In this document: one piece after another, positions 45,465 to 57,863 of the stretch | How the letters are laid out: each line of letters starts with the position of its first letter | How positions within the stretch are numbered: the first letter of the stretch is position 1 | Notes under the pieces: generated by a model | Database searches by the model: none | What the model saw: the letters and a program-made list of their open reading frames with translations, nothing else | What the model was told of the DNA's origin: nothing | Translations under genes and position numbers: made by a program | From: Mycobacteriales bacterium | Lineage (GTDB): Bacteria > Actinomycetota > Actinomycetes > Mycobacteriales > SCTD01 | Assembly: GCA_030447385.1 (NCBI GenBank) | Contig: JAUJOY010000005.1 | Location: forward strand, 130,319-194,318 | Reading direction: 5' to 3' | Length of the DNA: 64,000 bases

Positions 45465-46922
45465 GTGACCACGTTCGTGGACCGCGCGGTGCTGCACGTC
45501 TCCGCGGGCGACGGCGGCAACGGCTGCAGCAGCGTCCGCCGGGAGAAGTTCAAGCCCCTCGGCGGTCCGGACGGCGCGGACGGCGGCCACGGCGGCAACG
45601 TGATCCTTGTGGTCCGGAGCAACACCACGACGCTGCTCGACTACCACTACCACCCGCACCAGAAGGCGACGAACGGGCGCCAGGGCGCCGGGTCGATGCG
45701 CACCGGCGCGTCCGGCGCGGACGTGCTCGTCCCCGTCCCCAACGGCACGGTCGTCTACGACATGGACGGCAACCAGCTCGCCGACCTCGTGGGTGAGGGG
45801 GCGACCTTCGTCGCCGCCCGCGGGGGCCGGGGCGGTCTGGGCAACGCCAGCCTCGCGAGTGTTCAGCGCAAGGCGCCCGGGTTCGCGCTGCTCGGCGAGC
45901 CGGGTGAGCGCCGCGACATCGTGCTGGAGCTCAAGAGCGTCGCCGACGTCGCGCTGGTGGGCTTCCCGAGCGCCGGCAAGTCGAGCCTGATCGCCGCGCT
46001 CTCCGCCGCCCGCCCGAAGATCGCCGACTACCCGTTCACGACCCTCGTGCCCAACCTCGGCGTCGTCGAGGCCGGGGGCGTGACCTTCACCGTCGCCGAC
46101 GTCCCGGGGCTCATCCCCGGGGCGAGCCAGGGCAAGGGGCTGGGGCTCGAGTTCCTGCGCCACGTCGAGCGCTGCGCCGTGCTCGTCCACGTGCTGGACT
46201 GCGCCACCCTCGAGCCCGGCCGCGACCCGCTCAGCGACCTCGACGTGCTCGAGCAGGAGCTGTCGCTCTACAAGGACGACGTCGCGCAGCTCACGTCGCG
46301 GCCCCGGCTGGTCGTGCTCAACAAGATCGACGTCCCCGAGGCGCGCGAGCTCGCCGACCTCGTCCACCCCGAGCTCGAGTCGAGAGGGCTGTCGGTCTTC
46401 GCGCTCTCGGCCGCGACGCGCGAGGGCCTGCAACCCCTGCTGTACGCGATGGCGACGCTCGTCCAGCAGGACCGCGACCGCCAGCCGGTCGAGCAGGCCA
46501 GCCGCATCGTCCTGCGGCCGCGCGCCGTCGACGAGCCGGACTTCACCGTCGAGCCCGACGAGGAGGGCTTCCTGGTGCGCGGCGCCAAGCCCGAGCGCTG
46601 GGTGCTGCAGACCGACTTCGCCAACGACGAGGCGGTCGGCTACCTCGCCGACCGCCTCGCGCGGCTGGGGGTCGAGAAGGCACTGGCGGAGGCGGGCGCG
46701 GAGCCCGGAACGACGGTGACGGTCGGCGAGATCGCCTTCGAGTGGCAGCCGACCGACCTCGAGATGTTCGCGTCGGGGCTGCGCGGCCAGGACGTGCGCC
46801 TCGCCTCGGTGCACCGCACGAACGCCGACGAGCGCCGGCTGCAGAAGGACCTGCGACGGGCCGAGCGCATGGGCCTGGACAAGGACGCCCTGCAGAAGGC
46901 GCTCGAGGACGCACGCGAGTGA
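45465..46922 (+). CDS. obgE: Obg-family GTPase
   Basis: A 485-residue GTPase that aids 50S assembly and stress signalling. The glycine-rich Obg fold spans residues 1-158 ([40 protein letters not shown]). The GTPase domain has G1 [10 protein letters not shown] near residue 166, switch [17 protein letters not shown]3 [16 protein letters not shown] and G4 NKID. A C-terminal OCT domain (about 350-430) is present, with [17 protein letters not shown]. The GTG at 45465 overlaps no other gene. Its TGA overlaps the GTG of proB. Confidence 0.96.
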
Positions 46923-48010
46923 CCCGCTCGGCTGTCGCGGCGGCGCAGCGGGTGGTCGTCAAGGTCGGCTCGTCCTCGCTCACCACGGCGAGCGGCGGGC
47001 TGGACCCGGCGCGGCTGGACGCCCTGGTCGACGCCCTGTCGCAGGAGATGGCGGTCCGGGCGGGGCAGCTGGTCCTCGTCTCCTCCGGCGCCATCGCTGC
47101 GGGGCTCGCCCCGCTCGGGCTGTCCCGCCGCCCCCGCGACCTCGCCACCCAGCAGGCGGCCGCGTCGGTCGGGCAGATGCTGCTCGTGCAGCGCTACGCC
47201 ACGGCGTTCGCCCGGCACGGCCGCACCGTCGGCCAGGTGCTGCTCACCGCCGACGACGTCGTACGCCGCTCGCACTACCGCAACGCGCAGACCACGCTGG
47301 AGCGGCTGCTCGCCATGTCTGTCGTGCCGGTCATCAACGAGAACGACGCGGTCGCCACCGAGGAGATCCGCTTCGGTGACAACGACCGGCTGGCCGCCCT
47401 GGTCGCCCACCTGGTGCGCGCCGACGCGCTGCTGCTGCTCTCGGACGTCGACGGCCTCTACGACGGCGACCCGCGCCGGGCCGGAGCTCGGCTGGTGACG
47501 CAGGTCGACGGGCCGGCTGATCTCGCGGTGGTGCAGATCGGCGGGCCGGGGGACGCCGGCCTCGGCCGCGGCGGCATGGCGAGCAAGGTCGACGCCGCCG
47601 CCCTCGCCACGGGCGCCGGCGTGCCGGTGCTGCTTGCGGCGACGACCCAGGTGAGCGCCGCGCTGCGGGGCGAGGGCGGCACCCTGTTCGCCGCGACCCG
47701 ACCGCGCCCGCGGGGGCGGCTGCTGTGGCTCGCCCACGCGTCCACGCCGCGCGGGCGGCTGGTGCTCGACGACGGCGCGGTGGCCGCGGTGTGCCAGCGC
47801 CGGCTGTCGCTGCTGCCGGCTGGGGTGACGAAGGTGGAGGGGGACTTCGCCGCCGGCGACCCGGTCGAGCTGGTCGGGCTGGACGGGGTCCCGGTCGCGC
47901 GCGGACTGGTGGCCTACGACGCCGGCGAGCTGCCCGCGCTGCTCGGCCGCTCGACCCGCGAGCTGGGCCTGCGCGAGGTCGTGCATCGCGACGACCTCGT
48001 GGTGCTGTAG
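46919..48010 (+). CDS. proB: glutamate 5-kinase
   Basis: First step of proline synthesis: ATP-dependent phosphorylation of glutamate. It has 363 residues. The amino acid kinase domain has [80 protein letters not shown] and [20 protein letters not shown]. The C-terminal PUA domain (about 275-360) includes [20 protein letters not shown]. The gene is coupled to obgE by a GTGA overlap. The next pathway gene, proA, follows after a 587-base gap with palindromic repeats. Confidence 0.95.
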
Positions 48011-48097
48011 CCCTGCCCGCGCCAGCCCCCGCGCCCGCGCCCCTTGCGCCCGCGCCCCCCGCCAGCCCGCGCTGGCCCGCCCCGCCCGCCCGCCCGC

Positions 48098-48143
48098 AAG
48101 ATCTTCGGAAGATCCCCAGCATCCTGGTGCTGGGGATCTTCCG
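48098..48143. repeat. palindromic extragenic element, copy 1
   Basis: Core 48107-48142 is a perfect 15-bp inverted repeat (GGAAGATCCCCAGCA and its complement) around a 6-base loop. It is preceded by CAAGATCTTC. It could fold as a strong hairpin and end proB transcription, although no T run follows. Confidence 0.75.
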
Positions 48144-48417
48144 GTGACGGGGCGGACGGGGGAGGCCGAAGGCGCCCCGCCCCGACCCGCCCCGCGCCCG
48201 CCCCGCGCCGTGCCCGCCCTGCCGCGGCCCGACCCGCCTCGACCCGCCGCCGGCCCTGCGCTCCTCCAGGCGCTCGCGGGCGTCCCCGAGGACCATCTCA
48301 CGCGTCCGCCTGCCGCGCCGCCCGACTCGCCCCGCCCGACCGCCCCACCGCCCGCCCGCCCCGCGCCTGCGCGCCCGGCGCCGCCGGCGCCGCCCGCCCG
48401 CCCGCCCGCCCGCCCGC

Positions 48418-48463
48418 AAGATCTTCGGGAGATCCCCAGCATTCGGGTGCTGGGGATCTTCCG
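48418..48463. repeat. palindromic extragenic element, copy 2
   Basis: Same element 320 bases further on. Core 48427-48462 has GGGAGATCCCCAGCA and TGCTGGGGATCTTCC with one non-Watson-Crick pair and a different 6-base loop (TTCGGG). Loop variation with conserved stems suggests the structure matters. Confidence 0.75.
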
Positions 48464-48559
48464 AGGATGGGCAGAAGGGGCAGAAGGGGGCAGGCGGGGG
48501 AGGCAGAACGCGCGCCGTGCCGGCCCCAGGCGCCCGCCGCCCGCCCCACTCGCAAGTGG

Positions 48560-48590
48560 TTGGCCGCACAGCCGCGCCCTTCCGTACCCT
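48560..48590 (+). promoter_or_regulatory. leaderless proA promoter
   Basis: TTGGCC at 48560-48565 and TACCCT at 48585-48590, spaced by 19 bases, then seven bases to the ATG at 48598. Confidence 0.5.
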
Positions 48591-48597
48591 CGATGCC

Positions 48598-49845
48598 ATG
48601 AGCGAGGTTCTCGAGGTGGCGCGACGGGCTCGTACGGCGGCGGCCGGGCTCGCGCCGCTGCCCCGCAAGGACAAGGACGCGGCGCTGCACGCGATGGCCG
48701 ACGCGCTGCTCGAGCACGTCGACAGGGTGCTCGCGGCCAACGCCGAGGACGTGACCGCGGGCCGGGCGAGCGGCACCAGCGAGGCGCTGCTCGACCGGCT
48801 GTCCTTGACGCGCGAGCGCGTCGAGGCGATGGCCGACGGCCTGCGCCACGTGGCCACGCTGCCGGACCCGGTCGGTGAGGTCGTACGCGGCAGCAGCCTG
48901 CCCAACGGGCTGGAGCTGCGTCAGGTGCGGGTACCGCTCGGCGTCGTCGGCATCGTCTACGAGGCCCGGCCCAACGTCACCGTCGACGCTGCGGGACTCT
49001 GCCTGAAGAGCGGCAACGCGGTGCTGCTGCGGGGCAGCGCGAGCGCGTACCGCTCCAACACAGCCCTCGTCGACGTGCTGGCCACCGCGGCCACCGCCGC
49101 CGGGATGCCCGCCGACAGCATCCAACTCGTGCCGGGAACCGACCGCTCCAGCGTCAAGGAGCTGATGCAGGCGCGCGGCCTCGTCGACGTCCTGATCCCG
49201 CGCGGCGGCGCGGGGCTCATCTCGACGGTGGTTAGCGAGTCACAGGTCCCGGTCATCGAGACGGGGGTCGGGAACTGCACCGTCTACGTGGACGCGGGAG
49301 CCGACCTCGACAAGGCGGTTGCGATCGTGGTGGACGCGAAGACGACCCGGCCGAGCGTGTGCAACGCCGCGGAGACGCTGCTGGTGCACGCCGATGCCGC
49401 GGCGGCGTTCCTGCCGGTGGCCGTGGAGGCGCTGCGCGCCAAAGGGGTAACGCTGCACACCGACGCCCGAGCAGCTGCGTACGACAGCAGTGCCGTGCCT
49501 GCCACCGACGAGGACTGGGCGGCGGAGTACCTCTCCCTCGACCTCGCGGTGGGCGTCGTGGACTCGCTCGACGACGCGGTCGCCCACATCCGCCGCTGGG
49601 GGAGCGGGCACACGGAGGCGATCGTCACGCGGGACGTCGACGCGGCGCGGCGGTTCGTCAAGAGCCTCGACAGCGCGGCCGTGATGGTCAACGCGAGCAC
49701 CCGCTTCACCGACGGAGCCGAGTTCGGGTTCGGCGCCGAGATCGGCATCTCGACGCAGAAGCTGCACGCCCGCGGACCGATGGGCCTGCCCGAGCTCACC
49801 AGCACGACCTACGTCGTCACCGGCGACGGCCACGTGCGCGGCTGA
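48598..49845 (+). CDS. proA: gamma-glutamyl phosphate reductase
   Basis: Second step of proline synthesis: NADPH reduction of glutamyl phosphate to the semialdehyde. It has 415 residues of aldehyde dehydrogenase fold. The ATG at 48598 is set by the promoter just upstream. Landmarks are [20 protein letters not shown], the nucleotide-binding [40 protein letters not shown], catalytic Cys227 in [11 protein letters not shown] and the end [20 protein letters not shown]. Intact. Confidence 0.96.
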
Positions 49846-55762: not shown

Positions 55763-56890
55763 TCAGCTGGTGCGGCGCGCGTCCTCTGCCGACGGCCGGC
55801 TGAGCCGCTCGCTGACGGCGGCTGCCACAGTCGCGGCGCGGTCCGCGGCAGCGTGCTGATAGATCATCGCGGCTCGGGGCGACGAGTGGCCGGCCAGCGC
55901 CATGAGCTCACGCAGCGTCGCGCCCGACTGCGCCGCCAGGGTGAGCCCGGCGTGCCGCAGGTCGTGCAGGTGCGTCCTCGGGTCCAGCCCGCACCGGGCC
56001 ACTGCCGCGCGCCACCACTTGCGGTTGTGGCGGCTCAGCGGTCCGCCCTTCTCGCTGGTGAACAGCAGCCCCTCGAGGCCGGGCTCGGCCCACCGGTCGA
56101 GGTGCTCGTACAGGACCGGGATGACGACCTGGGGGAGCGCGACGGTCCGTACTCCGGCATCGCTCTTCGGCGGGCCGAAGAACGCTGGCGAGCGGGCAGG
56201 CTCGACGTACGCGCGTGTCACCCTCAGCTCGCGACGCAGGAGGTCGACATCGCACCGCCGGAGCGCTGACAGCTCTGCTGACCTAAGTGCAGTCGCGGCG
56301 GCGAGCCAGACGAGCGCCTCGTATCGCTCGGGCACGGCGTCAGCGAGCGCCCACACCTCGCGCTCCTGGAGCACCGGGCGCGGCGCCGGCGCGTCGGAAC
56401 CTGCTTTGCGGATCATGCAGGGGTTGCGGCCGATGAGGCCGTCTTCCACCGCACCGCCCAGGATCGCTCTCAGCACGCGGTAGCTCGTGGCCAGCGCTAC
56501 GGCGCCCCGCCCGCGCGCGGCAGCCTCGGCCCTCAGGAGGGTGTACCACTGCCGCACCCTCTGCGGCGTCAGCGCGGAAAGCGGTACCTCCCCCAGCGTG
56601 GGCAGGATCCTCAGCCGGAGCTGGTCGGCGTAGTGCTCCTTCGTCCGGGCTCGCAGGCCCCGGGTGCCGAGCCAGCGCGCAGCGTAGACGGCCAGCTTCT
56701 GGGACGACGCGCGCTGCATCGTCCAGGCCCCCCTCGCCACGTCGGTCTCGTACTCGCTGAGGGCGCGGCTGGCAGCGGCGCGCGTCGCGTAGGTACCGAG
56801 CGACTGCTGGTGCCCCTCCGGGAGAGTGAGTCGCGCCCGCCAGCGGCCGGACGGCAGCTGGCGGACGCGACCGAAAGACCTGCACGGCAT
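55763..56890 (-). CDS. tyrosine site-specific integrase
   Basis: A 375-residue integrase only 168 bases from tRNA-Ala, so it probably belongs to an element inserted there. The ATG at 56890, after GGGAGGGGCT, starts MPCRSFGRVRQLPSGRWRAR. The longer open frame upstream is not supported. The core-binding domain has YAARWLGTRGLRARTKEHYA and LSALTPQRVRQWYTLLRAEA. The catalytic domain has Arg in ATALRSAELSALRRCDV, the HxxR box HLHDLRHAGLTLAAQSG, His in LAGHSSPRAAMIY and Tyr in MIYQHAAADR. The protein is intact and related in layout to the first integrase but not a copy of it. Confidence 0.92.
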   Translation of the reverse strand: MPCRSFGRVRQLPSGRWRARLTLPEGHQQSLGTYATRAAASRALSEYETDVARGAWTMQRASSQKLAVYAARWLGTRGLRARTKEHYADQLRLRILPTLGEVPLSALTPQRVRQWYTLLRAEAAARGRGAVALATSYRVLRAILGGAVEDGLIGRNPCMIRKAGSDAPAPRPVLQEREVWALADAVPERYEALVWLAAATALRSAELSALRRCDVDLLRRELRVTRAYVEPARSPAFFGPPKSDAGVRTVALPQVVIPVLYEHLDRWAEPGLEGLLFTSEKGGPLSRHNRKWWRAAVARCGLDPRTHLHDLRHAGLTLAAQSGATLRELMALAGHSSPRAAMIYQHAAADRAATVAAAVSERLSRPSAEDARRTS

Positions 56891-57863
56891 AGCCCCTCCC
56901 GGGCAGAACAGTGACCCAGCATGACGCCTGCGCGAGCCAGATCCCGGTTGTCCACAGGACGAGGGCGACAGGTGATCGTCGGTGAGCCTCACCGCAACCT
57001 CACCGCTGCTCATGGGAAGCTCACGGCCGGCCGTCCCGAACAGCGTGGGATGTCTCTGAAGTGCCGCGGAGGGACCCGCGCGGGGTCCCTGGGGGTCGGG
57101 GGTCCCCACGCGGGACCCTGGTCGTGAGCTTGGGCCTCCGCTGCGCCCCCGCTGACCTGCGGGAACGCTGTGGTGGGGGCGGTCGTGGGACCAGATCGGG
57201 GGCAAACCCGGCCCCCCGATCTGGTCCCACTCCCTCGTCAGGACACAAGAGGAGAAGGGCAGGCCAGCGGGGGCGCAGCGGAGGCGGTTCAGGGGGCAGC
57301 CGGTCAAGGACAGAAGAGGGTGGAGGAGGTCGGCGGAAGGGCTCGCATGGCGGTCTGTGCAGTCGTGGGCGTCAGGTACGGGAACATGGGCTAGGGGAAG
57401 TTGGAGCGGCGTGGTCGACGAGCCGGGAGTGCGTAACAGGAGGTCGTGGTGATGGCGGACGGTGCGGTCGTAGCAGAGGCGGTCGCGGGCTGGGCCGGCG
57501 TCGGGCCGCTGATACGGCGCGGTTCCCCCACCGTCAAGGCCGCCTTCGGCGCCGCTGCGCGGCCGGCTCCGCCGGGCCTTGACCGCGGGGCCCCTACCGC
57601 GCCTGCGGGCAGAACCGCGGGCAGGCTGACGCCTGCCCGCTCCACACGCGGCCCGACGCCTCAGCGGCAGCGACTCGCGGAACTGGGCAGCGGGCCGCGC
57701 TGTTGATGCTCCGGACCAAGATCACTCCAGCCGGGATGGGCTCAGCAGGGGCAGCGATAGCTCCCAGCAGCGGACTCACGGGCTGTCGTACACGTCACGA
57801 TCGACAGGAGCCAGCCGACGCCCACGGGTTTGGCCTCCGCTCGTTTCCACAGGAGTAGCCGGC
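56891..57863. other. no confident gene; palindromic DNA
   Basis: About 970 bases upstream of the integrase without protein-like frames. It has a GC-rich stretch of nested inverted repeats around 57068-57120 (for example AGGGACCCGCGCGGGGTCCCT) and the large hairpin at 57185-57230. Another possible stem lies at 57605-57640 (GCGGGCAG...CTGCCCGC type). No excisionase or other element gene was identified. Confidence 0.4.
57185..57230. repeat. perfect 18-bp inverted repeat
   Basis: Arms 57185-57202 (GTGGGACCAGATCGGGGG) and 57213-57230 are exact complements around a ten-base loop. It could be a strong terminator, a recombination or replication structure, or an inverted-repeat element end. Confidence 0.8.

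Follow-up and report, generated by a model that had tools for sequence, protein, structure and literature searches.

The two palindromes between proB and proA in a Mycobacteriales genome belong to a diverged palindrome family that is dispersed over that genome. We consider it probable (roughly 0.6) that they are non-autonomous members of a REP-like family served by an enzyme of its own, an AbiEi-DUF559 nuclease. Two members of the family bracket a gene for such a protein, many homologous genes are bracketed by palindromes with a motif of their own, and in other genomes, too, the dispersed motif matches the resident gene. This gene-with-private-repeat pattern in actinobacteria points to a type of selfish repeat system that has not been described before.

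Two palindromes in an enlarged proB-proA gap

The window (the whole stretch of 64,000 nucleotides that was analyzed) comes from a 3.41-Mb genome, referred to here as G000, of the taxonomic family f1. The features in and around the proB-proA gap are as follows.

46919..48010, + strand: proB, glutamate 5-kinase (TIGR01027, E = 1.4e-112)
48011..48600, no strand: enlarged proB-proA gap, 590 bp (by comparison with relatives)
48081..48160, + strand: local duplication unit with copy 1 (direct repeat D2, 88% identity to 48401-48480)
48097..48152, no strand: palindromic element, copy 1 (56 positions; model R1, 68.2 bits)
48401..48480, + strand: local duplication unit with copy 2 (direct repeat D2)
48417..48472, no strand: palindromic element, copy 2 (core 48421-48468; model R1, 68.5 bits)
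48601..49845, + strand: proA, glutamate-5-semialdehyde dehydrogenase (PRK00197, E = 3.9e-181)

The initial annotation described two 46-base palindromic units, 320 bases apart, that differ in the loop. The pair is a real feature of this gap, and the start-to-start spacing of the near-perfect palindromes at 48097-48152 and 48417-48472 is indeed 320 bases, but the symmetric unit reaches up to 56 positions, and the copies differ outside the loop as well as in it (GGAAGATCC versus GGGAGATCC). The core of copy 1 (48106-48143) is perfectly paired around a 6-nt loop, and both copies have a degenerate outer right arm. The common context that was said to precede both units is present before each of them (CGCCCGCCCGCAAG). 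Both palindromes are held in the 80-nt direct repeat D2 (88% identity), whose first unit comprises copy 1 and its flanking context, which is C-rich on the left and G-rich on the right. Given these shared flanks, the two palindromes are local duplicates of each other.

Folded as single strands, the palindromes reach -31.6 to -41.4 kcal/mol (z-scores of -5.7 to -7.6), and 0 of 200 shuffles folded as well. Both are among the top three hairpin scores of the 64-kb window (16 and 16, with 18 elsewhere); five shuffled windows gave a total of one hairpin scoring at least 15. The fold z-scores, the shuffled windows, and the 18 genomic places of the family (see below) led us to reject a chance origin. 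In another part of the window, three strong hairpins are clustered at 56830-57230, including the top scorer of the window (57185-57230, with a GTGGGACCAGATCGGGGGC stem).

The proB-proA gap measures about 20 to 50 bp in seven relatives (G003, G001, G002, G008, G016, G018, and G011) and 111 bp in G012, and in other relatives it is occupied by unrelated genes or repeats. None of the 20 same-family relatives with both genes on the locus has a copy of the palindrome there, the best model match in their proB-proA loci having an E value of 0.041. The palindromes at proB-proA are a lineage-specific gain. A member of another genus (G022, locus L217) carries a different palindrome pair in this gap (GCTTGCGTCATC..GATGACGCAAGC); the gap behaves as if it were a repeated landing site.

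A diverged and dispersed palindrome family

In G000, the exact-core pattern matches just the two proB-proA copies, which means that the family has diverged. A consensus scan combined with a covariance model trained on 17 copies places the 56-bp family at 18 sites of this genome (E <= 1e-3), with a consensus of roughly CAAGATCTTCGGAAnATCCCCAGCAyCnnGrTGCTGGGGATnTTCCGAAGATCTTG. This bears out the earlier suggestion of a numerous extragenic palindromic element and rules out the reading that the genome holds only two copies. Matches to the model occur in 20 of 61 genomes; model-based copy counts are lower bounds, with only part of the first-look candidates scored.

Copy number jumps between relatives and even between congeners. 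Thus, the core pattern is found 15 times in G000, 20 times in G002, 14 times in G006, and 12 times in G004, 0 times in G007 and once in G001, and 20 times in G016 versus once in each of its three congeners. The 97% complete genome of G002 carries about 25 copies. No movement of palindromes was observed. Among 80 copies read for the orientation of the neighboring genes (13 without a class), the 67 classifiable ones comprise 27 convergent, 29 codirectional, and 11 divergent sites.

The arms of the G000 copies vary independently, without covariation, and no Rfam match came near its gathering score, so that a conserved-structure RNA was rejected. Arm covariation is present in the G016 and G002 copies; no excess was seen in 14 copies from family f15, and compensations in G004 were fewer than in shuffles. 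The upstream side of the hairpin, read on both strands within approximately 100 bp, is C-rich and G-poor at 16/18 copies in G000, 14/15 in G016, and 5/5 in G003, against 13/27 control intergenic centers; G002 shows the opposite skew (3/23). In the first three genomes, the flanks (left C-rich, right G-rich) are antisymmetric and decay over ~100 bp, a pattern absent in G002, and the skew means that, on either strand, the RNA preceding the hairpin is C-rich. At L147-L170 in G002, the palindromes form part of an extended mosaic repeat (CCGACACGAGAC-[palindrome]-CTCAGGTTCGGCGGCACC...) whose retained extents vary.

DnaA boxes were considered and rejected: the TCCACA core is similar to one and the core pattern also catches TTGTCCACA sites, but the half-sites differ in the first bases, and we judged the likeness coincidental. 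One such DnaA-box-like TTGTCCACA site (G000:C9:304926-304951) is common to several relatives and possibly marks oriC.

An AbiEi-DUF559 nuclease gene bracketed by the palindrome

Paired copies around a single gene pointed to the candidate enzyme. The G000 copies at C11:188850 and C11:190216, ~1.4 kb apart, bracket an AbiEi-DUF559 gene (C11:188982-189926) adjoining cysS/mshC; the downstream copy lies about 290 bp past the stop codon and is not adjacent to it. The orthologous gene in G016, from another genus, is likewise bracketed (C69:5185 and C69:6224), and in G004 a copy directly follows the stop codon of an ortholog at a contig edge. The nuclease gene beside cysS/mshC is common to 11 f1 genomes and is therefore regarded as vertically inherited. 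The orthologs at this locus in G005 (L242) and G022 (L246/L256) look frame-broken, and the palindrome family is nearly absent from G005. G002, G003, and G006 have palindrome copies and no detected cognate gene; such copies are perhaps orphans left after gene loss, or the gene was missed in draft assemblies.

The encoded protein, of about 310 to 330 amino acids, combines a winged helix-turn-helix (wHTH) domain with a PD-(D/E)XK nuclease domain (in the family, PF13338 with PF04480/PF18741). The G000 protein alone gave no Pfam match. Among 21 alignment members, DUF559 (PF04480) was matched by 10 (best E value, 6e-4), MTES_1575 by 4, and AbiEi_4 by 3; six further members scored above the cut-off for DUF559 in 5 cases (up to 3.6e-11 and 1.4e-11) and for AbiEi_4 in 3. 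The profile matches the nuclease core of PvuRts1I (4oky, E = 1.7e-5), and the acidic core residues E, D, and ExD are invariant in 21/21 members. By profile and acidic core, the associated protein is predicted to be a DUF559/PD-(D/E)XK nuclease.

Bracketing of homologous genes by a private motif

Outside f1, palindromes with the same motif are found on both sides of 32 of 61 homologs, as opposed to 1 of 317 controls (p = 2e-28 by Fisher's test, a value that ignores relatedness, although the 61 genes, from 8 families, are not phylogenetically independent); the other 29 homologs failed this two-sided test. The set represents the best 61 of 125 homolog matches (summed), minus three G098 fragments, and the control genes were taken from the window, from the proA loci of many species, and from further loci that were examined. 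Gene calls were made with a crude caller, which assigned 68% of the window as coding. Within f1, where 26 near-complete homologs were scored and fragments dropped, same-motif palindromes flank 8/26 genes versus 1/317 controls, and hairpins scoring at least 10 lie within 250 bp of 19/48 gene ends versus 11/144 control ends. In the set outside f1, when hairpins of at least 10 are present on both sides, they have a motif in common in 26/30 nuclease genes and in 0/12 controls; thus, extra intergenic room does not explain the bracketing. Of 38 neighbor genes in the nuclease loci, 1 was positive in the two-sided test.

The motif differs from gene to gene, every bracketed gene having its own. At the bracketed genes outside f1, the 3' palindrome lies at a median of 1.5 bp past the stop codon (30/32 within -20 to +45), and the 5' palindrome at a median of 101 bp ahead of the start of the profile match. 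A mycothiol maleylpyruvate isomerase-like gene in G003 (L200) also lies between two copies; bracketing by itself is therefore not diagnostic. No bracketing was seen at the DUF559 gene of Streptomyces canus or at a Thermus AbiEi gene.

Dispersal of cognate motifs in other genomes

Genome-wide searches for dispersed copies covered the motif of the window, three motifs from Tsukamurella, and one motif class from f15. The ATCTTGG...CCAAGAT class is present in 7 to 107 copies in 9 of the 12 f15 genomes searched (G066, 37; G049, 39; G037, 16; G110, 50; G104, 44; G080, 0; G092, 107; G136, 7; G098, 30; G131, 1; G058, 0; G074, 11), and a reversed-pattern control gave 0 copies in all 12. As to the two genomes with 0 copies, G058 has no detected nuclease gene and G080 has a gene with a different motif. 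The 44 copies listed for G104 all belong to the 46-nt type found on both sides of its gene. In G110, whose two genes have different motif types, both types are dispersed (19 and 12 of the 31 listed copies, of 50); the 45/46-nt types in these two genomes were tallied by hand from the listed copies. G074 (11 copies) and G136 (7 copies) are imperfect cases for the pairing of motif and gene: both have a family gene with no ATCTTGG palindrome near it.

The best match of one homolog in a plasmid collection was NZ_LR134454.1 from Tsukamurella tyrosinosolvens, in which 3/3 DUF559/AbiEi-annotated genes are bracketed versus 0/40 control genes, each by a separate motif (scores of 35, 29, and 50). Among 72,556 records, one of these motifs occurs at 20 places, a count in which one palindrome may register on both strands, in 8 records, all from the same strain, and another occurs at 5 places in 5 records of that strain. 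Searches of the plasmid collection with three other nucleases found nothing, and viral contigs yielded no relative. DUF559 and AbiEi-domain proteins are frequently annotated but have no assigned function, and the three Tsukamurella genes are examples. If the link to palindromes holds, it would give a large orphan protein family a function that can be tested, and would open the origin of a bacterial repeat class to direct testing.

Possible mechanism and alternative explanations

The proposed cycle would begin with recognition of the cognate palindrome by the N-terminal AbiEi-type winged helix. The C-terminal PD-(D/E)XK domain would then cut the palindrome, its extruded hairpin, or a target, and repair would place copies of the palindrome at new intergenic positions; the gene for the enzyme would stay put and be inherited vertically, as RAYT genes are. 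Inverted repeats are bound by AbiEi antitoxins (PMC7319586), so recognition of the palindrome is a plausible role for the N-terminal domain, and its copying a plausible role for the nuclease domain. Binding, cutting, and copying (mobilization) by the AbiEi-DUF559 protein are inferred steps. A broader proposal, for which we see slightly less than an even chance, is that AbiEi-DUF559 nucleases with private palindromes, widespread in actinobacteria, are a second, independent class of palindrome spreaders, employing double-strand cutting and repair instead of single-strand HUH chemistry, with several parallel systems per genome that would account for much of the orphan palindromic repeats. If the link between nuclease and palindrome holds, the REP-like life style would have evolved repeatedly on the basis of unrelated chemistries, and there would be a nuclease family with private 40- to 60-bp recognition sites.

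The same binding step would be shared by a regulon, which assigns a different role to the nuclease. The protein would then be a DNA-binding autoregulator with the gene-side palindromes as its operator and the dispersed copies as further binding sites, the nuclease domain would be incidental or act elsewhere, and the copies would have spread by ordinary duplication. An N-terminal AbiEi_4 winged helix and a gene-specific motif suit a DNA-binding protein, and autoregulation of type IV AbiE by AbiEi through promoter inverted repeats is described in PMC7319586. However, an operator has no evident role where the second palindrome lies, a median of 1.5 bp past the stop codon, the sites are mostly codirectional or convergent (29 and 27) with divergent ones making up 11 of 67, and copy number jumps between congeners; we regard a regulon as unlikely. 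Even less likely are transcription-end hairpins, that is, terminators or 3'-end stabilizers, possibly bidirectional and Rho-assisted, whose presence at the nuclease gene would be ordinary gene-end biology. The hairpins are strong, convergent sites exceed divergent ones (27 versus 11), the upstream side is C-rich and G-poor in G000, G016, and G003, and the arms covary in G016 and G002. Yet a T run after the stem (T >= 5 in 8) occurs at just 5 of 160 strand-sides, with 0/36 in G000, the skew is reversed in G002 (3/23), sequence is conserved and not pairing alone, the same motif also stands upstream of the nuclease gene, and control genes with two hairpins of at least 10 share no motif (0/12).

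The least probable origin, to which we give very little weight, is decay of a miniature inverted-repeat element (MITE), with the palindrome representing the two terminal repeats of an ordinary insertion sequence placed end to end and dispersed by the transposase of that element. The repeats are palindromic, dispersed, and gained in a lineage-specific manner, and the G002 copies lie within their longer mosaic repeat. Against this, half-sites are almost never found alone in six genomes (the exceptions are degenerate matches and a contig-end copy, the lone G002:C29 half-site, which is cut by the end of the contig), which leaves no sign of an insertion sequence ending this way, and visual inspection of the copies revealed no target-site duplication. 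An ordinary insertion sequence is made unlikely by the same absence of lone ends in these genomes.

Relationship to known systems

A RAYT-type (Y1_Tnp, PF01797) gene, which the initial annotation had proposed to look for, was not found in any of the 8 genomes searched (G000 and 7 copy-bearing relatives); the same search detected such genes in 5 of 14 controls. With no RAYT found and no U-tract behind the stems, neither a classical REP nor an intrinsic terminator fits. What remains of the proposed mobile REP-like unit is a modified version, with an AbiEi-DUF559 (PD-(D/E)XK) gene in the place of a RAYT, so that the earlier interpretation as a whole is partly supported.

RAYT genes flanked by two REPs of a private motif with dispersed copies are described in PMC2817692. 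REPs with RAYT/TnpA_REP, known as REPtrons (PMC2817692, PMC3733652, PMC8266576), share with the present system short dispersed intergenic palindromes, an enzyme gene located between two palindromes, a gene-specific motif, several gene-motif pairs per genome, and an enzyme gene that does not multiply itself. In contrast, the enzyme here combines an AbiEi wHTH with DUF559/PD-(D/E)XK instead of being a Y1/HUH tyrosine transposase, and the palindrome is longer (about 40 to 64 bp) and nearly symmetric; no GTAG-type tag was noticed on reading 80 copies. PMC3733652 also mentions palindromic repeat families without a known enzyme, including CGTC-tagged repeats apparently without a dedicated transposase. 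These are similarly dispersed without a RAYT, but in our case a dedicated candidate enzyme was found.

The AbiEi antitoxin of type IV AbiE has the same class of N-terminal winged helix and binds inverted repeats (PMC7319586, PMC3985639); here, a DUF559/MTES_1575 nuclease domain is joined to it. The annotation shows no AbiEii toxin gene next to EL451_RS09515 (one locus), whereas the Thermus AbiEi gene has one. In the open-access literature searched (preprints excluded), no member of the Vsr/DUF559/PvuRts1I group was found tied to dispersed palindromes, and it is possible that a link between DUF559 and palindromes has been described elsewhere. What this group of PD-(D/E)XK nucleases has in common with the proteins analyzed here is the nuclease core (PvuRts1I, 4oky; PF04480/PF18741).
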